Shown: positions 15,093-42,900 of the stretch, piece after piece
Position numbering within the stretch: position 1 is the first letter of the stretch
Layout: each line of letters opens with the position of its first letter
Source: Styela clava
Taxonomy: Eukaryota > Chordata > Ascidiacea > Stolidobranchia > Styelidae
Length of the DNA stretch: 64,000 bases
Assembly (NCBI RefSeq): GCF_964204865.1
Contig: NC_135257.1
Span: 8,020,151-8,084,150 of the forward strand
Direction of reading: 5' to 3'
Made by a program: the position numbers and the translations under genes
The notes under the pieces: model-generated
What the model was told of the DNA's origin: nothing
Databases searched by the model: none
Seen by the model: only the letters and a program-made list of their open reading frames with translations

Positions 15093-15128
15093 TCGTATGA
15101 AGAAATCATATTCCGCTGTTGTATCACG

Positions 15129-16247: not shown

Positions 16248-16644
16248 CCTTTTTATGATCTACAGTTAAAGGCGAAATCCAGCTACTCCAGGTACCTTCA
16301 GGCGCTTTTTCCATTAAGTCTGCTTTCAGCATTTCATCTATTTTTGCATCTACTTTGTCGCGCAACGCATATGGTATACGGCGCAGAGATTGAGCAATTG
16401 GTTTAACAGTTTTGTCAATATTCAAAGTCAATTTGTAATCTTTTAAAAGGCCAATTCCTTCAAACAACTTTCCATACTTGGAAAATATATCAGAATTTGA
16501 AGTATCAATAGTTTTGGAACTCATTGCATTCACGGGCCCCACTCTTAATACATTAAGTTTTGTTGCAGCTTCTTTTCCTAACAAAGTTTGACAATTGCCT
16601 TTGACAACAACAAAATCAGTCCGACATTTACTTTCATTATTCAA
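16078..16644 (-). pseudogene. Gypsy RT N-terminal part
   Basis: Contains RIPYALRDKVDAKIDEML, WISPLTVDHKKDGDIRICV and DMRRANQAILRERQPIPTV, the fingers region of a Ty3/gypsy RT (residues about 70-160 of this frame). The reading then leaves the true frame after VEDLL and continues as nonsense, overlapping the next RT frame. Confidence 0.8.
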
Positions 16645-16689
16645 AACGAAAACATTAGCAGTAAACGTACCTAAGACCTGAAGTGGTTT

Positions 16690-16845
16690 AGTACTTCATA
16701 AGCGTAGAGTGATGGTATCGAGCATTTTCTCGAATTACACACAATTCTCTCACTCTTCAGCCATTCCCAAGTATTGCTTCCCATGAAATTTCGGCAAGCA
16801 CCCGAATCAATTATTACATTCGACAAATTACCTTTAAAGTAATTA
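16690..16845 (-). pseudogene. Gypsy aspartic protease remnant
   Basis: In the frame between gag and RT the minus strand encodes SNVIIDSGACRNFMGSNTW. The DSGA is the active-site signature of retroviral-type aspartic proteases. The frame is open for only about 50 codons and does not join either neighbour without a shift. Confidence 0.6.
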
Positions 16846-17509
16846 TTCCATCATGGTAGGAATTGTGATCTCTCACGGTGAATGTAAACTCACTATTTTC
16901 GTCATTCGAACAATCAACACAATTCGTATTTGGATTATTTACTAGATTCACCTGGTGCGATTCTGCGTCAGCTTCAATTGCTTTTGCCTGATGATCAACA
17001 GCTTCCATTGCCCTTGCAATTTTTAGCAAATCACTTAATTCGAGATTTTCCTTTTCGAGAAATCTTCGTCGCGTGGAATTGGACCGACAATTATCAATTA
17101 CTTGGTCCCGTATGTGATCATCTTCTTTATCATCGAAGCCACATGTTGTTGCTCTTTGACGCAACCTACAAACAAACTGATCGACCGTTTCATCACTGGC
17201 CTGTTTAATTTGCCTGAATAAATGTCGTTCAAAAGGAATATTGGATTTCGGAGTAAAATATTCATCAAGTAAATTTAAAGTTTCGGAAAATGTTTTCTCT
17301 TCATCGAGTCCCGCTAAAGTATAAAAAATATCTTGTACCTTTACACCAGCGGTGAACAAAAGCAAAGCTTTCTTGGAGCTATCTTCCGTCGTTCCCTTGG
17401 CCGTCAAATATAATTTAAATGAACGTCTCCAACGTTGCCACCGTTGGGAAATACCGTGCGGGTCTCCATCGGAATCAAATGGTTGCATCGTTCCAATGTT
17501 ATTCTGCAT
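16814..17509 (-). pseudogene. Gypsy gag-like ORF
   Basis: 231-residue frame starting MQNNIGTMQPFD. It contains the gag helical region (RWQRWRRSFKLYLTAKGTTE, LLDEYFTPKSNIPFERHLF and ETVDQFVCRLRQRATTCGF) typical of Ty3/gypsy capsid domains. A full CCHC knuckle is not visible; only a C-x2-C (NCVDC) appears near residue 200. It overlaps the protease remnant in a different frame. Confidence 0.8.
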
Positions 17510-17756
17510 GATCTTGGATGGCTATATTCCTATATAGAATAGATCTGTTGTAGAGTTAACACCATATAGTAAGGTAAGCTAATAGTCTATTTGTGTTGGT
17601 TTGGCCGCACGACACGCTGATGAAATCCCTGAAATGGACTTATTTCAACTAAAATTTTTGATTTGCTGCCAATGCCCTTGACTGTGGTAACAGGATTTTC
17701 AATAGCTAATTTTTTTTAATACAGAGTGATTTGAGAAAATCTTCTTTATTTTCAGA

Positions 17757-18391
17757 TGAAAAACCAATCTTGCAACTGATGTGCTGAGCTGGAACGTCTG
17801 CCAATGTTTAAAAATCATGAATGAGACGAATGGAACTGCCAAATTTGTTTTGATGTTTGCAAAGTAAGTCTGTCATTTTTTAGAAGAAAAAAAATTCCCT
17901 ATTTTTATGTCAGTTATGCATGTATCGTCCATTCAGATGGTATGAAATTGTCAACTGTTCCTGTAATTGCCCATAACGATGCGTCGACGATGATAGACTG
18001 TCTTGGTTGAAGAATGACTTCATAGGTTCACTGTTGGAGTGGGAAGTGAGTTGTATTTTTTGTATGGTTTTATTCAATATGATCACAATCTCTAAAAAGA
18101 TCTACAACCATAGCATTTGAAGATTATATTGTATTTACATTGCCATAACATTGGAAATGAGAGATGTCATTTTGGGGTTGGCTAGTGGTATTTTCATGTA
18201 TTATTTATTCTTAGAAACAATTATAGAATGAGCATGGTGGTGATGAAAAGAGTTTTCTGGCTCGCCCAACCTTAGAGGGACTAAAATTCACCACACACAA
18301 TTTCATAGAGATGTGCAAATACTTTCTGGCAAATGGTTTGGAATATGTGTCTAGCATTGAATTGACTAGAGTATTTTCAATAGATAATTAA
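17757..18391 (+). pseudogene. P-element-type transposase, 3' part beyond the gypsy insertion
   Basis: Three exon-like pieces in P-transposase order: about 17773-17867 (LATDVLSWNVCQCLKIM, NGTAKFVLMFAK), 17937-18046 (YEIVNCSCNCP, stop, then DDRLSWLKNDFIGSLLEWE) and 18218-18391 (GDEKSFLARPTLEGLKF, EMCKYFLANGLEYV). Donor-like GTAAGT and GTGAGT and acceptor-like AG borders flank them. In-frame stops confirm decay. The last piece lies inside the 1,156-bp duplication and recurs at 19374-19547. Confidence 0.6.
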
Positions 18392-19233
18392 ATTCAGTAA
18401 GACTCACTAAAGTTTTTGTAAGTTTGGTTTGTTGTAGCCTGTTTCGAACTCTTTGTCAAATTTGAATTATGGTCTAAATTTATTGGGCTTCACAGCCTGC
18501 TCGGAAAAATATTATTGCTGTTTTATAATAGCTTGGCAATCAAATAACAAGTTTGGCTGGCAGAAGATTGAAGTGGATGATGCAGTTTATTGCCTTAATA
18601 GACTGATGTATTTGAGACTTTGTATTTTAGTCGAATCAAATTTAATTGGGTGCTTTTTGTTTGGTACCTAAGAGAAACACTGAGATAACCTGGCCCACAC
18701 AATAATTTAACAATAGACTCAATCAAGTACCTCAAGCTTTTTATTTAAGCAGGTACTTAAAAAAACTAATTGAAAATATGACTGCTGCTGATTCTTGCCA
18801 AATCTGGTCTAGTACCTCTAGAACAGACACCAGACCCCGGGGCCCTCTTTTTGTTTTTGAATAATTTGTAAAACAACTTTTTTGCATATGCATGTGGAAG
18901 CACTCTTATAAATAAACTCGTTACATATCTTGCTATCTTGATACTTTATTTGTGTCCATTGCAATAGGGTAGCATGTCATTGACATTGGTAGCAAAGTTT
19001 TGAGACTCTTCTAACTTATTTTCAATTCCTGCAAAGTCTATAAGATGTGGCTGTTTAGCACATTCCTGCGCTACTTTTTGGTAAGCCTCTTCTAATAGTA
19101 ACAAGTATGCTTGAGTTGGATACTTTAGCTTTCCCTCCGGGAACTGCAGTAATGGGATTGTTGAATGGGAGGGTCTTTCTGCACAGAGGGAGTCCAGGGC
19201 TTTTGCTGATTCTGCAAATTTAATATACCCCCT
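18095..19233 (+). repeat. Tandem duplication, copy 1 (period 1,156 bp)
   Basis: Nearly identical to 19251-20389 at a constant offset of 1,156 bases, with only about three substitutions seen on reading (for example gatgtcatt versus gatgttatt). It contains the last exon piece of the P-type transposase on the plus strand and a transposase-like fragment on the minus strand. Junction DNA ctacaaccagaccccctac repeats the ctacaacca that begins each unit. Confidence 0.9.
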
Positions 19234-20781
19234 ACAACCAGACCCCCTACAAAAGATCTACAACCATAGCATTTGAAGATTATATTGTATTTACATTGCC
19301 ATAACATTGGAAATGAGAGATGTTATTTTGGGGTTGGCTAGTGGTATTTTCATGTATTATTTATTCTTAGAAACAATTATAGAATGAGCATGGTGGTGAT
19401 GAAAAGAGTTTTCTGGCTCGCCCAACCTTAGAGGGACTAAAATTCACCACACACAATTTCATAGAGATGTGCAAATACTTTCTGGCAAATGGTTTGGAAT
19501 ATGTGTCTAGCATTGAATTGACTAGAGTATTTTCAATAGATAATTAAATTCAGTAAGACTCACTAAAGTTTTTGTAAGTTTGGTTTGTTGTAGCCTGTTT
19601 CGAACTCTTTGTCAAATTTGAATTATGGTCTAAATTTATTGGGCTTCACAGCCTGCTCGGAAAAATATTATTGCTGTTTTATAATAGCTTGGCAATCAAA
19701 TAACAAGTTTGGCTGGCAGAAGATTGAAGTGGATGATGCAGTTTATTGCCTTAATAGACTGATGTATTTGAGACTTTGTATTTTAGTCGAATCAAATTTA
19801 ATTGGGTGCTTTTTGTTTGGTACCTAAGAGAAACACTGAGATAACCTGGCCCACACAATAATTTAACAATAGACTCAATCAAGTACCTCAAGCTTTTTAT
19901 TTAAGCAGGTACTTAAAAAAACTAATTGAAAATATGACTGCTGCTGATTCTTGCCAAATCTGGTCTAGTACCTCTAGAACAGACACCAGACCCCGGGGCC
20001 CTCTTTTTGTTTTTGAATAATTTGTAAAACAACTTTTTTGCATATGCATGTGGAAGCACTCTTATAAATAAACTCGTTACATATCTTGCTATCTTGATAC
20101 TTTATTTGTGTTCATTGCAATAGGGTAGCATGTCATTGACATTGGTAGCAAAGTTTTGAGACTCTTCTAACTTATTTTCAATTCCTGCAAAGTCTATAAG
20201 ATGTGGCTGTTTAGCACATTCCTGCGCTACTTTTTGATAAGCCTCTTCTAATAGTAACAAGTATGCTTGAGTTGGATACTTTAGCTTTCCCTCCGGGAAC
20301 TGCAGTAATGGGATTGTTGAATGGGAGGGTCTTTCTGCACAGAGGGAGTCCAGGGCTTTTGCTGATTCTGCAAATTTAATATACCCCCTTTTCAGGGTAT
20401 ATCCTGCAATGTACTCAATTATAAATTTTTCAGGGCGGCAAATGTTACATTGTCATCCAGTGGCTTGAGAATGTAGTTGGTTATTTCCAACATGGCTTTC
20501 GCTGTAAAAATTTTCTCCGTATGCCCAGCGAACATCTTTGGCGAGAGGTGTGAGCATTGAGAGAATTTTAGCATGACTTGGTAAGCTCCTTTCTCTCTGG
20601 CAAAGACTTGCATGAGGGCAAGCCTTCAAATGTTAGCTGTAAGTCGGATCTCTTGATCATCGGAAACTTCAGTAGTTCTTCTATTTTTTACTTGTGTTGA
20701 TGCTTTCGAATGAGGAAATTCTTCGATTTTATCGAAATCCTCAAAAAGGAACTCAACAATTCCATGTATCTCGTTAGTAGC
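18958..20781 (-). pseudogene. Transposase-like fragment of unresolved family, partly duplicated
   Basis: Minus-strand pieces read MATNEIHGIVEFLFEDFDKI (from about 20781), then MQVFAREKGAYQVMLKFSQC and MFAGHTEKIFTAKAMLEI (20613-20419). In a shifted frame follow EYIAGYTLKRGYIKFAESA, LDSLCAERPSHSTIPLLQ and GKLKYPTQAYLLLLEEAYQK, ending near 20105. The last block recurs near 18958-19230. The EYIAGY and LKYP features resemble C-terminal regions of DNA transposases such as P-type elements, but I cannot fix the family. Stops and frame changes show it is broken. Confidence 0.45.
19251..20389 (+). repeat. Tandem duplication, copy 2 (period 1,156 bp)
   Basis: Second copy of the unit at 18095. It continues past 20389 into unique flanking DNA that extends the minus-strand fragment, whereas copy 1 is cut at that point, so copy 2 retains the original downstream context. 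The high identity implies a recent event or an assembly artefact. Confidence 0.9.
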
Positions 20782-22440: not shown

Positions 22441-22610
22441 TCATCGCAGGCTACCGGTACCGATAGTGTATTGTGGTACTATAATAGAAGATGATGCTAG
22501 CCTATTTGAATTTCTCCCCCAAAGCAAGACTGATGCGTGTTAATGTTTGGTAATTAGGGACAAGTTCCAATAATAAGAAATTTGGTTTCCATTCTCAAAA
22601 CACCACTGTC

Positions 22611-22670
22611 ATGCCAGCCAAATACCAGCCAAATTTCAAACTCATATTCCCGAATTTCATATTAAAGTGT
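22611..22670 (+). repeat. Outer unique part of the left inverted arm
   Basis: Begins atgccagccaaataccagcc and matches the reverse complement of 42751-42810 at about 45 of 60 positions with no gap. It lies outside the left satellite array. The weaker match outward (caaaacaccactgtc against ttgaggccaccgca) suggests the repeat extends somewhat further left. Confidence 0.7.
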
Positions 22671-22779
22671 TTCCTGGTCTAACAAAATGTACTTTCGGAC
22701 TTTCAACGAAAACTAATACTTTGGGACATCACGCTATCGGAGGATTTATATTCAGATGTTGATTTAGGAATATTACTGC

Positions 22780-25700
22780 AACTTATTATAATGACATGAT
22801 AGGGAAATATTCAAAATTTGAAAAAAAAGTTCAATTGTGTGAAAATTGAATTTTTTCATTAAAAATAGAATTATTTCAAATCTTTCCGGTCTCGGAGGAA
22901 AAGATTTGAATATACCATTGGGTAGAGGATTAACATAAGAACATATTCCGACAAAAAAATTTGAGTGATTTTCGAACTTTTTGAGGTTCGAAAATCTTTC
23001 AAGTATGCGAAAATTGAATTTTTTCATAAAAAATCGAATTATTTTAAATCTTTCCGGTCTCGAGGGCGAAGATTTGAATATACCATTGGATAGGGGACTA
23101 ACATAAGAACATATTCCAACAAAAAAATTGTGGTGACATCCCACGAGTTTTCGAATTTTTTGAGGTTCGAAACTGTTCAAATACACAAAAATTGAACTTT
23201 ATCATAAAAAATCGAATTATTTCGAATCTTTCCGGTCTTGGGGGCAAAGATTTGAATTTACCATTGGATAGAGGACTAACATAAAAATATATTCCAACAA
23301 AAAAATTGTGGTGACATCCGACGAGTTTTTGAACTTCTTGAGGTTCGAAAATGTTCAAGTATAAAAAAAATTTACTTTTTCACAAAATATCGAATTATTT
23401 CGAATCTTTCCGGTCTCGGGGGCAAAGATTTGAATATACCATTGGATAGTAGACTAATATAGGAACATATTCCAATAAAAAAATTGTGGTGACATCCCCG
23501 ACTTTTTGAACTTTTTGAGGTTCGAAAATGTTCAAGTATGAAAAAATTGAACTTTTTCACAAAATATCGAATTATTTCGAATCTTTCCGGTTTCGGGGGC
23601 AAAGATTTGAATTTACCATTGGATAGAGGACTAACATAAAAACATATTTCAACAAAAAAATTGTGGTGACATCCGAAGAGTTTTCGAACTTTTTGAGGTT
23701 CGAAACTGTTCAAATACACAAAAATTGAACTTTTTCATAAAAAATCGATATATTTCGAATCTTTTCGGCCTTGGGGGCAAAGATATGAATTTACCATTGG
23801 ATAGGGGACTAACATAATAATATATTCCAACAAAAAAATTGTGGTGACATCCCACGAGTTTTTGAACTTTTTGAGGTTCGAAAATGTACAAGTATGAAAA
23901 AATTTAACTTTTTCACAAAATATCGAATTATTTCGAATCTTTCCGGTCTTGGGGGCAAAGATTTGAATATACCATTGGATAGATGACTAATATAGGAACA
24001 CATTCCAACAAAAAAATTGTGGTGACATCCGACGAGTTTTCGAACTTTTTGAGGTTCGAAAATGTACAAGTATGAAAAAATTGAACTTTTTCACAAAATA
24101 TCGAATTATTTCGAATCTTTCCGGTCTCGGGGGCAAAGATTTGAATATACCATTGGATAGAAGACTAATATAGGAACATATTCCAACTAAAAAATTGTGG
24201 TGACATCCGACGAGTTTTTGAACTTTTTGAGGTTCGAAAATGTACAAGTATGAAAAAATTGAACTTTTTCACAAAATATCGAATTATTTCGAATCTTTCC
24301 GGTATCGGGGGCAAAGATTTGAATATACCATTGGATAGAAGACTAACATAGGAACATATTCCAACGAAAAAATTGTGGTGACATCCGACGAGTTTTCGAA
24401 CTTTTTGAGGTTCGAAAATGTACAAGTATGAAAAAATTGAACTTTTTCACAAAATATCGAATTATTTCGAATCTTTCCGGTCTCGGGGGCAAAGATTTGA
24501 ATATACCATTGGATAGAAGACTAATATAGGAACATATTCCAACAAAAAAATTGTGGTGACATCCGACGAGTTTTCGAACTTTTTGAGGTTCGAAAATGTA
24601 CAAGTATGAAAAAATTGAACTTTTTCACAAAATATCGAATTATTTCGAATCTTTCCGGTCTCGGGGGCAAAGATTTGAATATACCATTGGATAGAAGACT
24701 AATATAGGAACATATTCCAACAAAAAAATTGTGGTAACATCCGACGAGTTTTCGAACTTTTTGAGGTTCGAAAATGTTCAAGTATGAAAAAATTGAACTT
24801 TTTCACAAAATATCGAATTATTTCGAATCTTTCCGGTCTCGGGGGCAAAGATTTGAATATACCATTGGATAGAAGACTAATATAGGAACATATTCCAACA
24901 AAAAAATTGTGGTAACATCCGACGAGTTTTCGAACTTTTTGAGGTTCGAAAATGTACAAGTATGAAAAAATTGAACTTTTTCACAAAATATCGAATTATT
25001 TCGAATCTTTCCGGTCTCGGGGGCAAAGATTTGAATATACCATTGGATAGAAGACTAATATAGGAACATATTCCAACAAAAAAATTGTGGTGACATCCGA
25101 CGAGTTTTCGAACTTTTTGAGGTTCGAAAATGTTCAAGTATGAAAAAATTGAACTTTTTCACAAAATATCGAAATATTTCGAATTTTTCCGGTCTTGGGG
25201 GCAAAGATTTGAATATACCATTGGATAGAAGACTAATATAGGAACATATTCCAACGAAAAAATTGTGGTGACATCCGACGAGTTTTCGAACTTTTTGAGG
25301 TTCGAAAATGTACAAGTATGAAAAAATTGAACTTTTTCACAAAATATCGAATTATTTCGAATCTTTCCGGTCTCGGGGGCAAAGATTTGAATATACCATT
25401 GGATAGAAGACTAATATAGGAACATATTCCAACAAAAAAATTGTGGTGACATCTCACGAGTTTTCGAACTTTTTGAGGTTCGAAAATGTTCAAGTATGAA
25501 AAAATTGAACTTTTTCACAAAATATCGAATTATTTCGAATCTTTCCGGTCTCGGGGACAAAGATTTGAATATACCATTGGATAGAAGACTAATATAGGAA
25601 CATATTCCAACTAAAAAATTGTGGTGACATCCGACGAGTTTTTGAACTTTTTGAGGTTCGAAAATGTTCAAGTATGAAAAAATTGAACTTTTTCACAAAA

Positions 25701-28700
25701 TATCGAATTATTTCGAATCTTTCCGGTCTCGGGGGCAAATATTTGAATATACCATTGGATAGAAGACTAATATAGGAACATATTCCAACGAAAAAATTGT
25801 GGTGACATCCGACGAGTTTTCGAACTTTTTGAGGTTCGAAAATGTACAAGTATGAAAAAATTGAACTTTTTCACAAAATATCGAATTATTTCGAATCTTT
25901 CCGGTCTCGGGGGCAAAGATTTGAATATACCATTGGATAGAAGACTAATATAGGAACATATTCCAACTAAAAAATTGTGGTGACATCCGACGAGTTTTCG
26001 AACTTTTTGAGGTTCGAAAATGTACAAGTATGAAAAAATTGAAAATTTTCACAAAATATCGAATTATTTCGAATCTTTCCGGTCTCGGGGGCAAAGATTT
26101 GAATATACCATTGGATAGAAGACTAATATAGGAACATATTCCAACAAAAAAATTGTGGTGACATCCGACGAGTTTTCGAACTTTTTGAGGTTCGAAAATG
26201 TACAAGTATGAAAAAATTGAACTTTTTCACAAAATATCGAATTATTTCGAATCTTTCCGGTCTCGGGGGCAAAGATTTGAATATACCATTGGATAGAAGA
26301 CTAATATAGGAACATATTCCAACAAAAAAATTGTGGTGACATCCGACGAGTTTTCGAACTTTTTGAGGTTCGAAAATGTACAAGTATGAAAAAATTGAAC
26401 TTTTTCACAAAATATCGAATTATTTCGAATCTTTCCGGTCTCGGGGGCAAAGATTTAAATATACCATTGGATAGAGGACTAACATAAAAACATATTCCAA
26501 CGAAAAAATTGTGGTGACATCCGAAGAGTTTTCGAACTTTTTGAGGTTCGAAAATGTACAAGTATGAAAAAATTGAACTTTTTCACAAAATATCGAATTA
26601 TTTCGAATCTTTCCGGTCTCGGGGGCAAAGATTTGAATATACCATTGGATAGAAGACGAATATAGGAACATATTCCAACAAAAAAATTGTGGTGACATCC
26701 GACGAGTTTTCGAACTTTTTGAGGTTCGAAAATGTACAAGTATGAAAAAATTGAACTTTTTCACAAAATATCGAATTATTTCGAATCTTCCCGGTCTCGG
26801 GGGCAAAGATTTAAATATACCATTGGATAGAGGACTAACATAAAAACATATTCCAACGAAAAAATTGTGGTGACATCCGACGAGTTTTCGAACTTTTTGA
26901 GGTTCGAAAATGTACAAGTATGAAAAAATTGAACTTTTTCACAAAATATCGAATTATTTCGAATCTTTCCGGTCTCGGGGGCAAAGATTTGAATATACCA
27001 TTGGATAGAAGACTAATATAGGAACATATTCCAACAAAAAAATTGTGGTGACATCCGACGAGTTTTCGAACTTTTTGAGGTTCGAAAATGTTCAAGTATG
27101 AAAAAATTGAACTTTTTCACAAAATATCGAAATATTTCGAATCTTTCCGGTATTGGGGGCAAAGATTTGAATATACCATTGGATAGAAGACTAATATAGG
27201 AACATATTCCAACGAAAAAATTGTGGTGACATCCGACGAGTTTTCGAACTTTTTGAGGTTCGAAAATGTACAAGTATGAAAAAATTGAACTTTTTCACAA
27301 AATATCGAATTATTTCGAATCTTTCCGGTCTCGGGGGCAAATATTTGAATATACCATTGGATAGAAGACTAATATAGGAACATATTCCAACAAAAAAATT
27401 GTGGTGACATCCGACGAGTTTTCGAACTTTTTGAGGTTCGAAAATGTTCAAGTATGAAAAAATTGAACTTTTTCACAAAATATCGAATTATTTCGAATCT
27501 TTCCGGTCTCGGGGGCAAAGATTTGAATATACCATTGGATAGAAGACTAATATAGGAACATATTCCAACAAAAAAATTGTGGTGACATCCGACGAGTTTT
27601 CGAACTTTTTGAGGTTCGAAAATGTTCAAGTATGAAAAAATTGAACTTTTTCACAAAATATCGAAATATTTCGAATCTTTCCGGTCTTGGGGGCAAAGAT
27701 TTGAATATACCATTGGATAGAAGACTAATATAGGAACATATTCCAACGAAAAAATTGTGGTGACATCCGACGAGTTTTCGAACTTTTTGAGGTTCGAAAA
27801 TGTACAAGTATGAAAAAATTGAACTTTTTCACAAAATATCGAATTATTTCGAATCTTTCCGGTCTCGGGGGCAAATATTTGAATATACCATTGGATAGAA
27901 GACTAATATAGGAACATATTCCAACAAAAAAATTGTGGTGACATCCGACGAGTTTTCGAACTTTTTGAGGTTCGAAAATGTTCAAGTATGAAAAAATTGA
28001 ACTTTTTCACAAAATATCGAATTATTTCGAATCTTTCCGGTCTCGGGGGCAAAGATTTGAATATACCATTGGATAGAAGACTAATATAGGAACATATTCC
28101 AACTAAAAAATTGTGGTGACATCCGACGAGTTTTCGAACTTTTTGAGGTTCGAAAATGTACAAGTATGAAAAAATTGAACTTTTTCACAAAATATCGAAT
28201 TATTTCGAATCTTTCCGGTCTCGGGGGCAAAGATTTGAATATACCATTGGATAGAAGACTAATATAGGAACATATTCCAACTAAAAAATTGTGGTGACAT
28301 CCGACGAGTTTTCGAACTTTTTGAGGTTCGAAAATGTACAAGTATGAAAAAATTGAACTTTTTCACAAAATATCGAATTATTTCGAATCTTTCCGGTCTC
28401 GGGGGCAAAGATTTGAATATACCATTGGATAGAAGACTAATATAGGAACATATTCCAACAAAAAAATTGTGGTGACATCCGACGAGTTTTCGAACTTTTT
28501 GAGGTTCGAAAATGTACAAGTATGAAAAAATTGAACTTTTTCACAAAATATCGAATTATTTCGAATCTTTCCGGTCTCGGGGGCAAAGATTTGAATATAC
28601 CATTGGATAGAAGACTAATATAGGAACATATTCCAACAAAAAAATTGTGGTGACATCCGACGAGTTTTCGAACTTTTTGAGGTTCGAAAATGTACAAGTA

Positions 28701-29960
28701 TGAAAAAATTGAACTTTTTCACAAAATATCGAATTATTTCGAATCTTTCCGTTCTCGGGGGCAAAGATTTGAATATACCATTGGATAGAAGACTAATATA
28801 GGAACATATTCCAACTAAAAAATTGTGGTGACATCCGACGAGTTTTCGAACTTTTTGAGGTTCGAAAATGTTCAAGTATGAAAAAATTGAACTTTTTCAC
28901 AAAATATCGAATTATTTCGAATCTTTCCGGTCTCGGGGGCAAAGATTTGAATATACCATTGGATAGAAGACTAATATAGGAACATATTCCAACTAAAAAA
29001 TTGTGGTGACATCCGACGAGTTTTCGAACTTTTTGAGGTTCGAAAATGTACAAGTATGAAAAAATTGAACTTTTTCACAAAATATCGAATTATTTCGAAT
29101 CTTTCCGGTCTCGGGGGCAAATATTTGAATATACCATTGGATAGAAGACTAATATAGGAACATATTCCAACGAAAAAATTGTGGTGACATCCGACGAGTT
29201 TTCGAACTTTTTGAGGTTCGAAAATGTACAAGTATGAAAAAATTGAACTTTTTCACAAAATATCGAATTATTTCGAATCTTTCCGGTCTCGGGGGCAAAG
29301 ATTTGAATATACCATTGGATAGAAGACTAATATAGGAACATATTCCAACAAAAAAATTGTGGTGACATCCGACGAGTTTTCGAACTTTTTGAGGTTCGAA
29401 ACTGTTCAAATACACAAAAATTAAACTTTTTTCATAAAAAATCGAATTATTTCGAATCTTTCCGGTCTCGGGGGCAAAGATTTGAATATACCATTGGATA
29501 GAGGACTAACATAAAAACATATTCCAACGAAAAAATTGTGGTGACATCCGAAGAGTTTTAGAACTTTTTGAGGTTCGAAAATGTTCAAATACACAAAAAT
29601 TGAACTTTTTCATGAAAAATCTAATTATTTCGAATCTTTCCCGTCTTGGGGGCAAAAGTTTGAAAACACCATTGGATAGAGGACTAATAAAAGAATTTAT
29701 TTCAACAAAAAAAAATTGTAGTGACATTCGACGAGTTTTTACACTTTTTGAGGTTCGAAAGTGGTCAATTTCGCTAAAACTGAACTTTTCACTCGAAAAA
29801 TCGATTTATTTTGAATCTTTCCGGTCTCGGAGGTAAAAATTTGAAAATACATTGGATACTGACTAATGAAACAACTTATTCCAACAAAAAAATTGTAGTG
29901 ACACCATTGAAGTTTTTGAACGTTTGAGGTTCAATTATTGGCAAATTTTTCATAATTGAA
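22780..29960 (-). repeat. Left satellite array, about 40 units of 178 bp
   Basis: Constant 178-base spacing of identical landmarks (ccattggatag, tccggtctcggggg and gtggtgacatccgac) over about 7.2 kb. Units from about 24.0 to 29.3 kb are highly homogeneous, while units at both edges (22.8-23.9 and 29.4-29.95 kb) are diverged. Each unit holds the inverted repeat ttttcgaac-8 nt-gttcgaaaa and a shorter dyad tcgaa-ttat-ttcga. Because 178 is not a multiple of three, the overlapping 86-codon ORFs it generates are by-products of homogenisation, not a gene. Confidence 0.97.
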
Positions 29961-31767: not shown

Positions 31768-34700
31768 TCATGTTTTACAGTTTCTATCCTTCATAAAATC
31801 GTTGAAGGTACATGGCGGAATATGGAACAAAGCTTCCGATGACTCTTTGTAACTGATTCCCTGTCTTCTAGCATTAAATATTATAATTCCTTCCAAAATC
31901 ATAACTCTATCTATATATTCTGTTATAGTTCTAGTTTTTTTGATAAATATGTGCCCAAGTTCTGTTTGTGGTCCAATGATGGTCGAATTGTGAATAGGAA
32001 CTGGCGAAGTGAAACGAGATAGTTCATGTTTCCCATTCAGTCGCTTCCTAATGGTGCGTCTGCAGAATTTAAAAAACAAATAAGGACGAAGGTTGTTCAA
32101 TGTGACCTCATCCACCGCAGCAGAATCTTTTAGATAAGTTTTTGTATCTTCGTTACATCCTTTTATAAACAAACAATGTCTCAAATATGTACAGTCAGTT
32201 TGGGATTTTTCGTATGTCAGTTGAGCAGTGGTGGTCAAAATATATATTATTTCTCCAAGCAATTTCTCATTGATTTTTTCCCATTCGAGGTCGAATTTTA
32301 TTTCATACGAATCTTCAACGTTGGCAATAGTGACGACCACCGGAGGAAGCTCACCAGGCAACCGACGGCGAAGAACAGACGAATTTTCTTTTCTGGTCAC
32401 AGAGTCACCAGTAGCTGTAAGGCGTGCGCGCGCGAAAAAGTATAAATATCCGTTTTCGCCAATATCCCGAACTGCGTTTGAGTAAGAAGCCAACGAAATC
32501 TGTTCGTCGTCGCATTTAATAAAATTGTTGTTAATGAAGTTATAGGCCAGGTAATGGCCGGATCGTGTATCCATTCCTAGGTGTAGAAGTACACTGTCCA
32601 AATTGTACGTTGTCTCATTTAGCTCAAATTTAATACTCGGAAGAATAATCTTGGAACATTTATGATCCGAATATTCGTACCTTGCAAGCCAAATAATCAA
32701 ATATTTTGGCATATCTTCAAAATGAACTTTTTCTGAAATGCATTGGTTTTGACAAGACGGACAGACCATATCGGAAGGCATGCACTGAAAGTGTTTGATA
32801 TAGTCAGTAATACAGCATCCATCAGTCAAATCTTCATACATATTTGAAATGATGCATGTCTCTTTAGTACATTGTCCAATTGAAGCCCAGTCACAATTAT
32901 TGCACGTCCTATGTGATCTTACTGACACTTCGTGATTGTATCCATGATTTTTTAAAGCGGCTAATAGGCCTGATTGAAGTAGGAACTCCTGTGCATCTTG
33001 TTGTACACCAAACCTCCAGCCAAGGCACGCACATATCATACGAATACACTTTTCAACAGCTTCATGATTTATTGAAACTAAGTCCACCAGGTTGCGATAC
33101 ACATTCATGATGTTGACAATGACTGGAGATCCTCCTACTTGAGATTTTCTCATAGAATACAGGTTGCGAGTCGTGAAATAAATGGACTGGATTACAGCAT
33201 TGAACCAACAATTTTGAGAAAAATTTGGTAACCCCTGGAAGAGTAATCCGTGAAAAGAGTCCTCCAACTTATTTTTTAGGCTAGTATCCATTTTAATCGA
33301 ACTAACACATAACTCATAAAGAATTTTTCTTCGGTACAGAATGGGATCAGTCGGATGCTTTTGTTTATTAGAGCAGATCATATTGACTGCCATACACATG
33401 TATACTCCACAACTCATTTGGTCTACCTGAGGGAGCATAACCAATTGATCGAATCTGACATCTTCTATATTTTCAAATTGTTTTAGGAAGGGCATGAAGT
33501 GAATATTTATTTTGCTTTTTAATTCGTCATTATTACCGTCAGCCGAATCAATCAATGTCAGAGAACCGGAAGACGAGCACATATGCAGGACAGTAAAATG
33601 ATTTTCATATAATATTGGATAAAATGTATGCTCACGGAGAATCTTGTTATTGGAAGGTGTAGTTAATTCCTGTTTCAAATTAGTGAAGTTTTTTATTTTT
33701 TTTCCAGATAAAATATGGTTAGTGAACAAAGCATCACAAGAACCATAAATATTATTTTCTTGTAGTTCGTTGTAACTGCGAGTCAATTGCTGAATGAACG
33801 CGCAAGCAACATTATCGGTCAGCCATCCGCGATTATGATAAGGATTATTTGAATGCTTTTTTAGGGCACCATGTATTCGTTCTTCCGGTGCTTCGTTAAC
33901 TGACATCAAATCAGCAAATGTTACAGTCATTCCACTCTCTAGTGTAAGAGCAGGGTGATTGATGGAATTTTCTGCGTAGCTCATATCTGCCCAAACTTCA
34001 GAGCAAAATATATCAACTCTAGATTGCGAATCAGTAACTCTTGCCAAATTTGCTGAAATGCCAAGTCGTGCAAGCGGGGTTTGGTTGACGTTAATTTGCG
34101 GTGGAACTATCTTTTTGGCAGCCGAATAAGTTGTGTAAAATCCTTTATCGCGACGTTTTCGTTTTTTGAAAGTTGATTCGGGGAATTTAATGCTCTTGCC
34201 TTTTCCTTTCTGTGATTTAGCGTGGATAATAGAATCTGCGTACTGCTTTTGTGTTATTTGTAATTCCTGAGCATACGTTTTGGTAAACTGATATAAATCA
34301 GAGAACCTTTTATGTTTGAAAAATACGCGCTTCATCTGTCCAAAATGCTGTTCTATGATTCCCTGAGTTTCGTTGTTACTAAAAATGGTTTGAAACGAAC
34401 AATCTTTCAAATCATTATACTTGTCGCGATAATTGTCATAAGCCTTTGAATTTTGACCAGTAGCATGTCTTTCCAAATTGCCAAGCATCAATTGAGACGT
34501 AGATGGTATGCGACTGAGAATGTTATTTAAAAACGCCCGAAAAAATTTTTCTGAATAGTAAATGTTGCCTTCCGCAAGTTTCTCATTGTTGCTATGAACT
34601 TTGTACAATCTTGATTTTCGAAATGTATCGTATTTAAATTTGTATCTTAGATAAAATGGGGATTTTCTTTCTTGTTTTTTGTCGACTTTTTTAGAAGACA

Positions 34701-36927
34701 GAAAAAAATTGTCCCCACTCCCGACTTCTTCTACCATCAAATGTTCATTTTGGTTTTGATTTTCGTTCAAAACAATTCCATTCATCAAACTCTTGAAATG
34801 TTTTATTACAACTTGCGAAGATTGCTGACAAGTTGTAACCACCAGCATACTGAACACTATATCATCTAGTTCTTGTAGACTTTCACATTTGAAGCATAGG
34901 GTAATCCAATGCATCGCTAAAACCGTGTGGCGTTGGTAATATTTGAGGCACATGATTTTCGCTGCATGCATCGAATGGCTCAAACAGTTGTGTACAATAG
35001 TTCGTTCTGCATCTTCTATTGTGGCAATTCCAGTAACAATTCGATAGCATCTTTGATAGTATTCCAATCGCGTTTCGCGGCAAAAAGCTTTCAAAACTGC
35101 TATCCAGAGAGCCATTGAGCCATCTATTATCATCATGATTGGCTTTTTATCAAAATTCACGTGTCTGATGGCGTCAAAAACAAATCTCTCTAAAAAATGT
35201 CCAATATTCATGGCGCCATGTTCATTCGCTACAAACGTCGCAATTGGCAAAGCTAGCTTTCCTTTGGTCGGATTCCGTATAAGTAGTGTGTACACTTGAA
35301 AATCTTTTGTGTCAGACTTTCGTTTCATCACACTTCCAGTTGCATCAAGATATGTAACATCGTTTCTGCAGGTTTGCTTGTACATTTCAAGCTGTTCGTC
35401 CGAATATAGGGTAACACTTGGTGGATGAACTGTAAATTGCCTCAACAAATGGTCGCCTTCTGACTCCATTTCATTTTTCAGATGTTCTAAATTTTTAATC
35501 CAATCGTTGCTGTTTGTTTCGGCATATTTTATATTCCTAAGAGTCGATTTACTCGGCACATTTGTGAAAGAGCCTAGATATCTTTCCTCTGATGTCATTT
35601 TATTGTAAAGTTGCCGCTGGAAGCACTCTGACGATTTGTACTCCATTTCTTTATGCATGCCATCCCGCAAATTTCCTCTCACGTATCTCCGGCGAATACA
35701 TTTCGACTTGTGGACTCGATAGCCGATGATGTCAACTGTGCACTCTATGGTATCTTTTCGGGAAAATATTAAAATTTTTCCTTCAACTTGACAGTTGCAG
35801 CATTTTCTGTGACCGCAATATAAATTAATCTTTCCTTTATAGGCTTCCCCAATTAGAGCACTATCCAAGCTGCGTAGATAGTGATTGGCAACGTAGGGAA
35901 CGCATTCATTGTAAATTTGCCGGAAATGTTTAAGAAATATTTCTGTATAATCTGTGTTCTTGAAGCGGTGCTTAGATCGATGCTCTGAAAGTCGTTTCCA
36001 TTCCTCAAACGTGATTTGAAATTTTCCTTGTCTTTTAATGTAAGTTTTTCTTTTCAACGATTTAATTACTTTTTTATTATACTTTCCCAAACGGTACAGG
36101 GATTTGAAAGATGGAATGCGTTTGCATGAAATATCTTTTGAACAATTTTGAACTGAGTTTACAAATCGTGACTTCCGTGCGCGACCTTTGCCTGTCTTTC
36201 GTACAATTATAACGCTATCCGCTGAATCTGATTGGTCAGATGAGATATTAATCATAGACTTTTCATTTCCATGTATTTCTTCTTTAATTTGTTTTGGCGA
36301 AATCAACTCACAGCAATTTCCATTCCCATTTTTGGTATGAAAATATATTTTACTGGTACTACCTGTTATTTCTACTTTCACTCCTTCGCATAAAAACTTT
36401 TGATCCTCCCACGCCCCTTCTGGCGACGAGTCAAACAAGCAAGACGGATGAAACCAATTAAAACAACTTTCGCACTCAACCATAAACTCGCCTGAATATG
36501 GTCTTTTGCAAATACAATATAAAACAGTTTCGTCATTCAATTCGCTATTTTCAGTTTTTTCTTCCGGAAAATCATTATAATTGTTTTCTTCATCTGGTTT
36601 ATATCTAGTCAAGTTTTTCATAACTTGGTTTATTTTATGCCTGCTTGCTGTATCATGGCGTTGGTGTAACATAGTTTTGGCCATCTTGTAAAAACCCTGA
36701 GATTTATTATGTATTTTCGTGGTACATATTTCCTTTTGCCCGACACTTTTTTTTGAATTGATGCATTTTTCAATATCGTTCAAATTATTTTCGTAAAAGA
36801 TCTTGAGACAAGAGATGCGTGTGGATGCTGACCTTTTAATCCAACATCCACAAGACTTCAAAAAGTCTTCTCTTTGACCGTCTGATTCAAACTCATTTAA
36901 ATTTTTCAAAATAAAAAACTCTGACAT
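31768..36927 (-). CDS. Fusion protein: PHD-like finger, MULE-type DDE transposase, Ulp1/SENP protease, USP deubiquitinase
   Basis: Uninterrupted 1,719-residue ORF starting at an ATG. Residues 138-180 form a PHD-like finger (C138, C140, C152, C155, H160, C163, C180; the eighth ligand is missing). Residues about 520-870 match a Mutator-like transposase: D528 in TYLDATG, D602 in MMIIDGS, C648/H651/H654 in HNCLSHSMH, E853 in NNETQGIIEQHFGQ. Basic KKRKRR follows at 921-926, possibly a nuclear localisation signal. Residues 1105-1180 match C48 SUMO proteases: H1110, D1127, Q1167 and C1173 in SCGVYMC. Residues 1230-1500 match a USP: C1240 in GLPNFSQNCWFNA, QQDAQEF at 1309, C1342/C1345 with C1389/C1392, H1458 in RSGHYLAY and D1473/D1474. 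The C-terminal 220 residues are unrecognised. The likely role is mobilising the flanking element while removing SUMO and ubiquitin from itself or host factors; that role is inference. Confidence 0.88.
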   Translation of the reverse strand: MSEFFILKNLNEFESDGQREDFLKSCGCWIKRSASTRISCLKIFYENNLNDIEKCINSKKSVGQKEICTTKIHNKSQGFYKMAKTMLHQRHDTASRHKINQVMKNLTRYKPDEENNYNDFPEEKTENSELNDETVLYCICKRPYSGEFMVECESCFNWFHPSCLFDSSPEGAWEDQKFLCEGVKVEITGSTSKIYFHTKNGNGNCCELISPKQIKEEIHGNEKSMINISSDQSDSADSVIIVRKTGKGRARKSRFVNSVQNCSKDISCKRIPSFKSLYRLGKYNKKVIKSLKRKTYIKRQGKFQITFEEWKRLSEHRSKHRFKNTDYTEIFLKHFRQIYNECVPYVANHYLRSLDSALIGEAYKGKINLYCGHRKCCNCQVEGKILIFSRKDTIECTVDIIGYRVHKSKCIRRRYVRGNLRDGMHKEMEYKSSECFQRQLYNKMTSEERYLGSFTNVPSKSTLRNIKYAETNSNDWIKNLEHLKNEMESEGDHLLRQFTVHPPSVTLYSDEQLEMYKQTCRNDVTYLDATGSVMKRKSDTKDFQVYTLLIRNPTKGKLALPIATFVANEHGAMNIGHFLERFVFDAIRHVNFDKKPIMMIIDGSMALWIAVLKAFCRETRLEYYQRCYRIVTGIATIEDAERTIVHNCLSHSMHAAKIMCLKYYQRHTVLAMHWITLCFKCESLQELDDIVFSMLVVTTCQQSSQVVIKHFKSLMNGIVLNENQNQNEHLMVEEVGSGDNFFLSSKKVDKKQERKSPFYLRYKFKYDTFRKSRLYKVHSNNEKLAEGNIYYSEKFFRAFLNNILSRIPSTSQLMLGNLERHATGQNSKAYDNYRDKYNDLKDCSFQTIFSNNETQGIIEQHFGQMKRVFFKHKRFSDLYQFTKTYAQELQITQKQYADSIIHAKSQKGKGKSIKFPESTFKKRKRRDKGFYTTYSAAKKIVPPQINVNQTPLARLGISANLARVTDSQSRVDIFCSEVWADMSYAENSINHPALTLESGMTVTFADLMSVNEAPEERIHGALKKHSNNPYHNRGWLTDNVACAFIQQLTRSYNELQENNIYGSCDALFTNHILSGKKIKNFTNLKQELTTPSNNKILREHTFYPILYENHFTVLHMCSSSGSLTLIDSADGNNDELKSKINIHFMPFLKQFENIEDVRFDQLVMLPQVDQMSCGVYMCMAVNMICSNKQKHPTDPILYRRKILYELCVSSIKMDTSLKNKLEDSFHGLLFQGLPNFSQNCWFNAVIQSIYFTTRNLYSMRKSQVGGSPVIVNIMNVYRNLVDLVSINHEAVEKCIRMICACLGWRFGVQQDAQEFLLQSGLLAALKNHGYNHEVSVRSHRTCNNCDWASIGQCTKETCIISNMYEDLTDGCCITDYIKHFQCMPSDMVCPSCQNQCISEKVHFEDMPKYLIIWLARYEYSDHKCSKIILPSIKFELNETTYNLDSVLLHLGMDTRSGHYLAYNFINNNFIKCDDEQISLASYSNAVRDIGENGYLYFFARARLTATGDSVTRKENSSVLRRRLPGELPPVVVTIANVEDSYEIKFDLEWEKINEKLLGEIIYILTTTAQLTYEKSQTDCTYLRHCLFIKGCNEDTKTYLKDSAAVDEVTLNNLRPYLFFKFCRRTIRKRLNGKHELSRFTSPVPIHNSTIIGPQTELGHIFIKKTRTITEYIDRVMILEGIIIFNARRQGISYKESSEALFHIPPCTFNDFMKDRNCKT

Positions 36928-38129: not shown

Positions 38130-41100
38130 CATCCAATGGTATATTCAAATCAAATCCCCCGAAACCAGAAAGATTCGAAATAACTCTATATTTTGTGAAA
38201 AAGATCTTCTATCAGTCCTCTATCCAATGGTATATTCAAATCTTTGCCCCCAGGACCGGAAAGATTTGGAATAATTCAATATTTCATGAAAAAGTTCAAT
38301 TTTTGTGTATTTGAACATTTTCGAACCTCAAAAAGTTCGAAAACTCTTCAGATGTCACCACAATCTTTTTGTTGGAATATGTTCCTATATTAGTCTTCTA
38401 TTCAATGGTATATTCAAATCTTTGCCCCCAAGACCGGAAAGATTCGGAATAATTCGATATTTCATGAAAAAGTTCAATTTTTGTGTAATTGAACATTTTC
38501 GAACCTCAAAAAGTTCGAAAACTCGTCAGATGTCACCACAATTTTTTTGTTGGGATATGTTCCTATATTAGTCTTCTATCCAATGGTATATTCAAATCTT
38601 TGCCCCCAAGACCGGAAAGATTCGGAATAATTCGATATTTCATGAAAAAGTTCAATTTTTGTGTAATTGAACATTTTCGAACCTCAAAAAGTTCGAAAAC
38701 TCGTCAGATGTCACCACAATTTTTTTGTTGGGATATGTTCCTATATTAGTCTTCTATCCAATGGTATATTCAAATCTTTGCCCCCAAGACCGGAAAGATT
38801 CGAAATAATTCGATTTTTTGTGGAAAAGTTCAATTTTCGCATACTTGAACAATTTCGAACATCAAAAAGTTCGTAAACTCTTCGGATGTCACCACAATTT
38901 TTTTGTTGGGATATGTTCCTATATTAGTCTTCTATCCAATGGTATATTCAAATCTTTGCCCCCAAGACCGGAAAAATTCGAAATAATTCGATTTTTTGTG
39001 GAAAAGTTCAATTTTCGCATACTTGAACAATTTCGAACATCAAAAAGTTCGGAAACTCTTCGGATGTCACAACAATTTTTTTGTTGGAATATGTTCCTAT
39101 ATTAGTCTTCTATCCAATGGTATATTCAAATCTTTGCCCCCAAGACCGGAAAGATTCGGAATAATTCGATTTTTCATGAAAAAGTTCAATTTTTGTGTAA
39201 TTGAACATTTTCGAACCTCAAAAAGTTCGAAAACTCGTCGGATGTCACCACAATTTTTTTGTTGGAATATGTTCCTATATTAGTCTTCTATCCAATGGTA
39301 TATTCAAATCATTGCCCCCAAGACCGGAAAGATTCGAAATAATTCGATTTTTGTGGAAAAGTTCAATTTTCGCATACTTGAACAATTTCGAACATCAAAA
39401 AGTTCGGAAACTCTTCGGATGTCACCACAATTTTTTTGTTGGAATATGTTCCTATATTAGTCTTCTATTCAATGGTATATTCAAATCTTTGCCCCCAAGA
39501 CCGGAAAGATTCGGAATAATTCGATATTTCATGAAAAAGTTCAATTTTTGTTTAATTGAACATTTTCGAACCTCAAAAAGTTCGAAAACTCGCCAGATGT
39601 CACCACAATTTTTCTGTTGGAATATGTTTCTATATTAGTCTTCTATCCAATGGTATATTCAAATCTTTGCCCCCAAGACCGGAAAGATTCGGAATAATTC
39701 GATTTTTCATGAAAAAGTTCAATTTTTGTGTAATTGAACATTTTCGAACCTCAAAAAGTTCGAAAACTCGTCGGATGTCACCACAATTTTTTTGTTGGAA
39801 TATGTTCCTATATTAGTATTCTATTCAATGGTATATTCAAATCTTTGCCCCCAAGACCGGAAAGATTCGGAATAATTCGATATTTCATGAAAAAGTTCAA
39901 TTTTTGTGTAATTGAACATTTTCGAACCTCAAAAAGTTCGAAAACTCGTCAGATGTCACCACAATTTTTTTGTTGGGATATGTTCCTATATTAGTCTTCT
40001 ATCCAATGGTATATTCAAATCTTTGCCCCCAAGACCGGAAAGATTCGGAATAATTCGATATTTCATGAAAAAGTTCAATTTTTGTGTAGTTGAACATTTT
40101 CGAACCTCAAAAAGTTCGAAAACTCGTCAGATGTCACCACAATTTTTTTGTTGGAATATGTTTCTATATTAGTCTTCTATCCAATGGTATATTCAAATCT
40201 TTGCCCCCAAGACCGGAAAGATTCGAAATAATTCGATTTTTTGTGGAAAAGTTCAATTTTCGCATACTTGAACAATTTCGAACATCAAAAAGTTCGGAAA
40301 CTCTTCGGATGTCACCACAATTTTTTTGTTGGGATATGTTCCTATATTAGTCTTCTATCCAATGGTATATTCAAATCTTTGCCCCCAAGACCGGAAAAAT
40401 TCGAAATAATTCGATTTTTTGTGGAAAAGTTCAATTTTCGCATACTTGAACAATTTCGAACATCAAAAAGTTCGGAAACTCTTCGGATGTCACAACAATT
40501 TTTTTGTTGGAATATGTTCCTATATTAGTCTTCTATTCAATGGTATATTCAAATCTTTGCCCCCAAGACCGGAAAGATTCGGAATAATTCGATATTTCAT
40601 GAAAAAGTTCAATTTTTGTTTAATTGAACATTTTCGAACCTCAAAAAGTTCGAAAACTCGTCAGATGTCACCACAATTTTTTTGTTGGAATATGTTTCTA
40701 TATTAGTCTTCTATCCAATGGTATATTCAAATCTTTGCCCCCAAGACCGGAAAGATTCGGAATAATTCGATTTTTCATGGAAAAGTTCAATTTTTGTGTA
40801 ATTGAACATTTTCGAACCTCAAAAAGTTCGAAAACTCGTCGGATGTCACCACAATTTTTTTGTTGGAATATGTTCCTATATTAGTCTTCTATTCAATGGT
40901 ATATTCAAATCTTTGCCCCCAAGACCGGAAAGATTCGGAATAATTCAATATTTCATGAAAAAGTTCAATTTTTGTGTAATTGAACATTTTCGAACCTCAA
41001 AAAGTTCGAAAACTCGTCAGATGTCACCACATTTTTTTTGTTGGAATATGTTCCTATATTAGTTTTCTATCCAATGGTATATTCAAATCATTGCCCCCAA

Positions 41101-42725
41101 GAACGGAAAGATTCGAAATAATTCGATTTTTTGTGGAAAAGTTCAATTTTCGCATACTTGAACAATTTCGAACATCAAAAAGTTCGGAAACTCTTCGGAT
41201 GTCACCACAATTTTTTTGTTGGCATATGTTCCTATATTAGTCTTCTATCCAATGGTATATTCAAATCTTTGCCCCCAAGACCGGAAAAATTCGAAATAAT
41301 TCGATTTTTTGTGGAAAAGTTCAATTTTCGCATAATTGAACAATTTCGAACATCAAAAAGTTCGGAAACTCTTCGGATGTCACCACAATTTTTTTGTTGG
41401 GATATGTTCCTATATTAGTCTTCTATCCAATGGTATATTCAAATCTTTGCCCCCAAGACCGGAAAAATTCGAAATAATTCGATTTTTTGTGGAAAAGTTC
41501 AATTTTCGCATACTTGAACAATTTCGAACATCAAAAAGTTCGGAAACTCTTCGGATGTCACCACAATTTTTTTGTTGGGATATGTTCCTATATTAGTCTT
41601 CTATCCAATGGTATATTCAAATCTTTGCCCCCAAGACCGGAAAAATTCGAAATAATTCGATTTTTTGTGGAAAAGTTCAATTTTCGCATACTTGAACAAT
41701 TTCGAACATCAAAAAGTTCGGAAACTCTTCGGATGTCACCACAATTTTTTTGTTGGAATATGTTCCTATATTAGTCTTCTATTCAATGGTATATTCAAAT
41801 CTTTGCCCCCAAGACCGGAAAGATTCGGAATAATTCGATATTTCATGAAAAAGTTCAATTTTTGTGTAATTGAACATTTTCGAACCTCAAAAAGTTCGAA
41901 AACTCGTCAGATGTCACCACAATTTTTTTGTTGGGATATGTTCCTATATTAGTCTTCTATCCAATGGTATATTCAAATCTTTGCCCCCAAGACCGGAAAG
42001 ATTCGGAATAATTCGATATTTCATGAAAAAGTTCAATTTTTGTGTAGTTGAACATTTTCGAACCTCAAAAAGTTCGAAAACTCGTGAGATGTCACCACAA
42101 TTTTTTTGTTGGAATATGTTTCTATATTAGTCTTCTATCCAATGGTATATTCAAATCTTTGCCCCCAAGACCGGAAAGATTCGAAATAATTCGATTTTTT
42201 GTGGAAAAGTTCAATTTTCGCATACTTGAACATTTTCGAACCTCAAAAAGTTCGGAAACTCGTCGGATGTCACCACAATTTTTTTGTTGGAATGTGTTCC
42301 TATATTAGTCATCTATCCAATGGTATATTCAAATCTTTGCCCCCAGGACCGGAAAGATTCGGAATAATTCGATTTTTCATGAAAAAGTTAAATTTTTGTG
42401 TATTTGAACATTTTCGAATCTCAAAAAGTTCGAAAACTCTCCGGATGTCACTACAATTTTTTTGTTGGAATATATTTTTATGTTAGTCCTCTATCCAATG
42501 GTATATTCAAATCTTTGCCCCCAAGATCGGAAAGATTCGAAATAATTCGATTTTTCCTGAAAAAGTTTAATTTTTGTGTATTTGAACATTTTCGAACCTC
42601 AAAAAGTTCGAAAACTCGTGGGATGTCACTTTAATTTTTTTGTTTGAATAAGTTCTATTAGTAGTCTTCTATCCAATGGTGTTTTCGAATTTTTTCCCCT
42701 GTGACCGAAAAGATTCGAAATAGTC
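38130..42725 (+). repeat. Right satellite array, about 26 units of 178 bp, opposite orientation
   Basis: The same 178-base unit as the left array, reverse-complemented (ctatccaatgg, ctttgcccccaagaccgg and gatgtcaccacaa recur every 178 bases). Two unit subtypes alternate: one with gtgtaattgaac and catgaaaaag, the other with gcatacttgaac and tgtggaaaag. The second also occurs in the outermost left units. Edge units (38.1-38.3 and 42.3-42.7 kb) are diverged. It is about 2.6 kb shorter than the left arm. Confidence 0.97.
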
Positions 42726-42750
42726 AATTATTTCGTATAAAATCACGGCC

Positions 42751-42810
42751 ACACTTCGATATGACATTCGGTACAACTTTTTCAAGATTTGGCTGGAATT
42801 TTGCTGGCAT
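42751..42810 (-). repeat. Outer unique part of the right inverted arm
   Basis: Reverse complement begins atgccagcaaaattccagcc and matches 22611-22670 at about 45 of 60 positions without gaps. It lies just outside the right satellite array, so the two arms share more than the satellite itself. Confidence 0.7.
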
Positions 42811-42900
42811 TGCGGTGGCCTCAAAACCCGTGTCTTGATAACTACAGCAGTGCTGGGAAGAAACCCCAAAAGACATACCGGTACCAGTACCGTACCCGGA

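Follow-up and report, generated by a model that had tools for sequence, protein, structure and literature searches.

A putative MULE-type transposase chain with predicted SUMO- and ubiquitin-protease modules in a Rehavkus-like transposon of Styela clava

The window, a 64,000-nucleotide stretch of Styela clava DNA (NC_135257.1, positions 8,020,151 to 8,084,150), contains a DNA transposon of 20,218 bp at 22602-42819 that encloses one open reading frame. This frame starts with ATG and encodes 1,719 amino acids on the minus strand (31768-36927); an earlier sequence-only reading had reported it as continuous over 1,719 codons and gave no strand. From the N terminus, the predicted chain comprises a PHD finger (residues 134-185; 36373-36528), a cluster of invariant Cys and His residues that is a candidate zinc-binding and DNA-binding domain (residues 365-410; 35698-35835), a MULE-type DDE core (residues 500-900; 34228-35430), a C48 protease of the Ulp1/SENP type (residues 1035-1191; 33355-33825), a USP-type deubiquitinase (residues 1232-1498; 32434-33234), and a conserved C-terminal domain (residues 1505-1719; 31771-32415), all on the minus strand. 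The PHD finger, the Cys/His cluster, the C-terminal domain and the arrays that flank the ORF are additions to the sequence-only reading, which had joined a MULE-type transposase, an Ulp1/SENP-type protease and a USP-type protease in a single chain; profiles, motifs and relatives with the same module order support that arrangement. Each of the remaining five frames of 31768-36927 carries 77-137 stops, with a longest open stretch of 103 codons, and a chance ORF was rejected on this basis. NCBIfam profiles returned chance-level matches only.

To place the protein among its relatives, we searched a protein database and the genome itself. None of 2,436 candidates passed a full-length protein database search. 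A search with the DDE region recovered four proteins, P0001-P0004, the first three with 39-43% identity over that region, and a profile search added the fragment P0005. P0001 and P0002 carry a UCH domain, the USP of P0003 is truncated at its end, and P0004, a short protein, has no C48/USP part. Two scans of viral contigs gave 6 and 198 pattern stretches and no relatives. The animal's own genome (376.6 Mb) held at least 46 matches, of which four are further members of the window's family and many are more distant; 27 of 249 candidates were scored, which makes the copy numbers lower bounds. We fetched 23 of these loci, 10 kb each, and grouped them by frames and DNA similarity into family A, that of the window (L009-L012), family B (L013/L014), family C (L018/L019), family D (L015, L016, L020-L023) and family G (L024-L030). 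L031 stands separate from the families, and L017 is a broken copy outside the grouping.

The sequence-only reading had suggested looking for other copies with all three modules, and the order PHD-DDE-C48-USP recurs in at least six further diverged lineages across the genome and the protein database. Both proteases are present in at least seven lineages: the window, families C, D and G, L031, P0002, and P0001 and P0003 taken together. Protein length is 1719-2074 aa in the window, P0001, P0002 and L018. In family B the chain (PHD, DDE, C48) stops right after C48, and nowhere in its two fetched loci did a USP match fall below E 0.13. Because the other complete lineages carry a USP, loss of this module in family B is the simplest reading, with the caveat that our trees are unrooted. 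A lone capture in the window was rejected in light of the relatives in the genome and the database. The same order recurs in other copies, on other contigs and in database proteins, and the remaining frames are filled with stops; an artifact of assembly or annotation, in which adjacent genes or an unrelated long ORF merely resemble one protein, was therefore rejected as having a negligible chance of being correct.

The DDE core is assigned from invariant motifs, from context, and from weak profile matches in relatives, and should be read as a putative nuclease on those grounds. Among 15 aligned proteins, with rows that fall short of a site left out, D528 is invariant in 14 of 14 and D602, C648 and H651 in 15 of 15; these rows are partly dependent, as L024 and L025 are near-identical and L027-L029 are close. 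Of the catalytic set originally proposed, D528, D602 and the C648-x2-H651 pair hold, and E853 does not. Position 853 is Glu in 1 of 14 proteins and Arg, Leu or Lys in the others, on which grounds it was rejected as the catalytic acid. The conserved third acid is E859, a Glu in all 14 proteins that have that motif; the tail of P0004 differs there. The Pfam MULE profile did not match the window's protein, either whole or cut out. Below the cut-off, it weakly matched P0004 (E 0.041), two of three DDE slices of relatives (E 0.015 and 0.054), and one of ten members of sequence set A6 (E 0.026), the last amid chance-level families. Whole proteins of other families gave no match to C48 or MULE at E <= 0.1 (0 of 5). 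Compared with solved structures, the DDE part yielded no match in one search and three chance-level matches in another.

The C48 module drew no Pfam match when the whole window protein was searched. Cut out, it scored 20.8 and 21.7 bits against PF02902, for which the gathering score is 20.7. A profile built from 11 family members (set A5) retrieved SENP2 at E 2.6e-8, followed by SENP1, SENP5 and Ulp1. When the A5 members were searched alone, 6 of the 11 matched PF02902 at E <= 1 (best 2.2e-9) and the other five were unmatched; the C48 slices of P0001-P0003 gave no PF02902 match (0 of 3). The proposed catalytic residues are invariant in the aligned proteins that reach each site, with H1110 and D1127 in 14 of 14 and Q1167 and C1173 in 13 of 13.

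The USP module matched UCH (PF00443) over residues 1232-1498 at E 1.1e-18 in the whole protein and E 3.2e-21 when cut out. A profile from four family members retrieved USP36 (E 1.9e-17), with USP12 and USP46 as further solved-structure matches. C1240 is conserved in 12 of 12 aligned relatives, H1458 and D1473 in 11 of 11, and the first Cys of each of the two CxxC zinc pairs in 12 of 12, in keeping with the catalytic and metal-binding set first proposed; these counts leave out stray letters of L013 and P0005, both of which lack a USP at that place. The second zinc pair of the L031 USP is irregular. The profile searches that the sequence-only reading had advised thus came out clearly for UCH, close to the cut-off for C48, where the family profile led to SENP2, and weakly for MULE, in relatives only. 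Judged by profiles and conserved residues, the C48 and USP parts are real protease domains, and both are very likely to be enzymatically active.

Pfam placed the PHD finger at residues 138-181 in the whole protein, and PF00628 matched the cut-out piece at E 2.7e-6. The finger scored above the PF00628 cut-off in the window, P0002, L013 and L031, and was detected below it in P0001, P0003, P0004, L018, L020 and L025. The solved chains closest to it are those of SHL, EBS, DIDO1 and Spp1, whose PHD fingers are H3K4me3 readers, and the window's finger is probably a reader of the histone H3 tail. In the Cys/His cluster (371-410), C371, H373, C376, C377, C379, H406 and C410 are invariant in an alignment of five sequences and again in one of eight (the window and seven loci). 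Pfam searches of the cluster gave chance-level matches and no convincing family; it is probably a zinc domain that binds the element ends. The C-terminal domain aligns in P0002 and seven ORFs of the same genome at 18-35% identity, and it too (31771-32415) returned no convincing Pfam family. As a separate observation, the final Cys expected of a C4HC3 finger seems to be missing from the PHD finger (36373-36528), where an invariant H197 downstream might substitute for it.

The borders of the element were defined by comparison with its siblings. An exact 8-mer, CTCAAAAC, occurs at 22594-22601 and again at 42820-42827, where it forms the left and right target-site duplications. Inside the left copy lies an outer terminal domain (22602-22830, plus strand) that begins with ACCACTGTCATGCCAGCC and matches L009:391-619 at 96.5% over 229 bp, the similarity starting at one shared base. 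Next comes an array in which a 178-bp unit is repeated about 39 times (22969-29932, plus strand), as called by TRF. On the other side of the ORF, TRF and repeat matching identified the 178-bp repeat again, in inverted orientation and in about 25 copies (38210-42722, minus strand), and the two arrays match as inverted sequences at approximately 91-92%. The right outer terminal domain (42735-42819, minus strand) is identical to a sibling right end, L036:4856-4940, at 85 of 85 bp. The outermost left part and the right end match as inverted sequences, at 73.5% identity over 68 bp. The sibling that runs from L009:391 to L036:4940 measures 14,550 bp, has equal termini, and is flanked by a perfect 9-bp duplication, TATCGTCGG. 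Only for the window element (8 bp) and L009+L036 (9 bp) did the available sequence extend to both ends. Two earlier candidates were discarded: the 9-mer AATTATTTC as a target duplication, as it belongs to the repeat unit, and the first TRF borders as the element ends, as the outer domains lie beyond the arrays. When the two copies are oriented by their ORFs, their termini are swapped, meaning that with respect to the ends the core faces opposite ways in the two; this suggests that flip-flop recombination between the inverted arrays turned the core.

Inverted repeats flank the ORF on both sides in 11 of the 23 loci, seven of which have TRF arrays in both arms. Within the fetched 10 kb, the other 12 loci comprise five with one array and seven without. 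An array of about 180 bp was absent from the fetched 10 kb of L024-L029 (family G) and L031 and present in L030. The repeat units measure 178 bp in family A, 185 bp in B, 186 bp in C, 196 bp in D (also 200 bp, and 219 bp in one arm) and 195 bp in G. No clear similarity was found between the units of different families, whose scores exceeded the best of 30 shuffles by no more than 3; the exception is a weak similarity between the units of D and G (44 and 48 against 25-26). Unit lengths of approximately 178-200 bp in five families lie near the nucleosome repeat length. In all six family D loci (L015, L016, L020-L023), further tandem arrays of 126/251 bp lie where the ORF begins, at its 5' end, in addition to the outer ones.

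We then considered how the modules have evolved. Selection was estimated by the NG86 method with our own script on six pairs drawn from four family G ORFs; between families, synonymous sites are mostly saturated. Within family G, dN/dS was 0.11-0.15 for the DDE core, 0.15-0.29 for C48, 0.22-0.41 for the USP and 0.24-0.39 for the C-terminal domain. The upper 95% codon-bootstrap bounds were at most 0.43 for C48, 0.70 for the USP and 0.84 for the C-terminal domain, all below 1. The C48 and USP modules of this family thus evolve faster than the DDE core, and purifying selection acts on both proteases in G, the one testable family. A comparison of dN/dS among copies had been put forward as a check, and for C48 and the USP of family G it gave values below 1.

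These values bear on the idea that the protease domains are passengers, that is, captured pieces of host genes without a selected function. Capture of gene pieces is frequent in plant transposons, according to the part of PMC13317346 that treats them, and family B, which lacks the USP, would suit such a history. Against it stand the invariant catalytic residues of the complete domains, the dN/dS below 1 in family G, and module trees that are largely concordant, and we consider the passenger reading highly improbable. The trees were built for four parts (Zn+DDE, C48, USP and the C-terminal domain) and are unrooted, with no host USP or SENP outgroup. The group of G, D and L031 is split from the window, L018 and the P proteins with support of 1.00, 0.99 and 1.00, and 0.50 for the C-terminal domain. 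P0001 and P0003 pair in all three trees that contain both, and the window pairs with L018 in three of four. Conflicts occur where C48 places L018 with L013 (0.88) and where the USP pairs L025 with L029 (0.86). This large measure of agreement points to modules that were inherited together, and hence to an old fusion. As far as alignments and trees can tell, the three-module design is old and selected, a family trait rather than a chance fusion.

A different role for C48 would be maturation, in which it cuts the long chain into the transposase and other products. The proteins are very long (1719-2074 aa), C48-like folds act as processing proteases in some viruses, and 1 of the 11 A5 members weakly matches a Pfam family of this viral kind (E 0.0086). 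The best solved relatives are SENP2 and SENP1, which speaks against self-processing, as does the linker between the DDE core and C48: its dN/dS is 0.30-0.46 in four pairs, among the least constrained parts, and no clear common cut motif was apparent by inspection. We regard self-processing as improbable.

Evidence of recent movement comes from closer copies. Between the window and its broken siblings L009, L011 and L010, dS is 0.011-0.030 and dN/dS 0.56-0.58. Three pairs of near-identical ORFs on different contigs differ at 3 of 5,559, 5 of 3,867 and 15 of 5,853 bases; the second is that of family B (L013:3034-6900 and L014:3049-6915). Such pairs fit recent movement; known without their element ends, they may alternatively reflect segmental duplication. 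The sequence-only reading had taken the absence of stops to imply recent activity or selection, and both find support, the former in the sibling with its own target duplication at dS 0.011 from the window, the latter in the dN/dS below 1 of both family G proteases.

Taken together, the locus is almost certainly a Rehavkus-like transposon of the MuDR superfamily with foldback-type termini, present as a young copy whose ORF is intact, Rehavkus having been compared by description. The features listed for Rehavkus in the relevant part of PMC6446971 are a PHD finger, one ORF, a 9-bp target-site duplication and a mini-satellite near the terminal inverted repeat, and an excerpt of PMC10218199 describes Rehavkus-1_TC as 9.5 kb long, its inverted termini containing tandem repeats of 164 bp. 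Rehavkus was reassigned to MuDR by Repbase, as stated in a passage of PMC4455052. The present elements share the PHD finger, the single ORF, the 9-bp duplication (in the sibling) and tandem repeats at the ends; they differ in size, at 20.2 kb for the window element and 14.55 kb for the sibling compared with 9.5 kb for Rehavkus-1_TC. The portions of these descriptions available to us do not mention C48 or USP modules, and the main text of a 2026 arthropod MULE survey with a Rehavkus-rooted tree contains no Ulp1, ubiquitin or PHD (PMC13359780).

Plant Vandal/Kaonashi (KIU) MULEs are a further point of comparison. They share the superfamily and an Ulp1-type domain and, in the excerpt of PMC13317346, escape silencing; what the Ulp1 domain itself contributes is called unknown there. 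Their Ulp1 domain is described, in the same excerpt, in a VANC-type gene, one of three, whereas here it lies in the transposase chain together with a USP and a PHD finger; that excerpt mentions no USP. The foldback elements FB, Tetris and Tm1, and the P-superfamily look-alike Galileo, have long inverted termini in common with the present elements, to judge from partial descriptions. Tandem repeats build the termini of Tetris, for which no coding copy was found (part of PMC4079207), and those of Galileo (PMC3169594 and Galileo literature, in part). In contrast to Tetris so described, a coding copy is present here, and it encodes a PHD-DDE-C48-USP protein. The Phantom elements, MULEs found in animals, also belong to the MuDR superfamily, and in their aphid copies a mini-satellite follows the ORF; they differ in having no zinc finger, or FLYWCH or SWIM, and no PHD (both from part of PMC6446971). 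The sequence-only reading knew of no described element that combines these modules. Within the open-licence PMC literature, the scope to which this support is confined, we likewise found none with a transposase, C48 and a USP in one chain.

Our preferred explanation, to which we assign a probability of roughly 55%, is that the protein is the modular transposase of a Rehavkus-like element whose proteases act locally at the element's own chromatin. The PHD finger would read the histone H3 tail and the Cys/His cluster would bind the element ends, while the DDE nuclease would move the element, leaving target duplications of 8-9 bp. Where the transposase binds the element's chromatin, the SENP-like and USP-like proteases would remove SUMO, and ubiquitin on SUMO or histones, with silencing factors or the transposase itself as their substrates. 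The sequence-only reading had proposed a similar role, in which a transposon would free its own transpososome or host silencing proteins of both modifiers, and this proposal is plausible. Provided that the host has a piRNA-type SUMO pathway, SUMO-dependent silencing of the piRNA/SetDB1 type and degradation of the transposase would both be delayed. The USP would be helpful and not strictly required, as family B exists without one. For piRNA silencing in Drosophila, a link has been described between Su(var)2-10, a SUMO ligase, and Piwi and SetDB1 (excerpt of PMC7272611). By analogy with this link and with the plant Ulp1 elements that escape silencing, removal of SUMO and ubiquitin at the element would be the most likely role. 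Two observations weigh against this explanation: C48 and the USP change more rapidly than the DDE core, and family B, without a USP, still has two near-identical copies.

Alternatively, the proteases may protect the transposase rather than act on chromatin silencing, by clearing SUMO and SUMO-ubiquitin hybrid chains from the transposase or synaptic complex and so blocking SUMO-targeted ubiquitin ligases and the proteasome. At least seven lineages combine the two protease kinds within a single chain, which would suit removal of mixed chains, and the solved-structure matches of the USP profile are general USPs (USP36, USP12 and USP46). The PHD finger, which suggests work at chromatin as well, tells against self-protection as the sole role, and we consider this alternative unlikely. 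Taken jointly, anti-silencing or self-protection offers a quite likely account of the proteases, and chromatin as the first target stands at slightly under an even chance.

The preferred reading, of proteases acting at the element's own chromatin, can be extended to the arrays, whose unit length might be maintained close to the nucleosome repeat. Dozens of phased nucleosomes on them might then serve as a docking platform for a built-in anti-silencing machine of histone reader, SUMO protease and deubiquitinase that erases marks in cis, an extension that we put forward tentatively and hold to be doubtful. Provided that both proteases are active, the stripping of SUMO and ubiquitin would be a long-kept transposon weapon fused to the enzyme that finds the element. 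Should this be true, SUMO-dependent silencing would become testable as a direct battlefield between transposon and host, a view at which the plant MULEs carrying Ulp1 likewise hint. The copies within this one genome provide natural comparisons, between families with and without a USP and between near-identical copies.

Other features of the window lie outside the element. On the minus strand at 14094-17521, frames for reverse transcriptase, RNase H and integrase mark a retrotransposon that is Ty3/gypsy-like by domain order. Positions 18092-19233 and 19247-20389 form a direct duplication of 1,143 bp with 99.65% identity, placed nearly head to tail. A 476-codon frame on the plus strand at 617-2047 looks coiled-coil-like by eye, has no Pfam match, and is perhaps a host exon.
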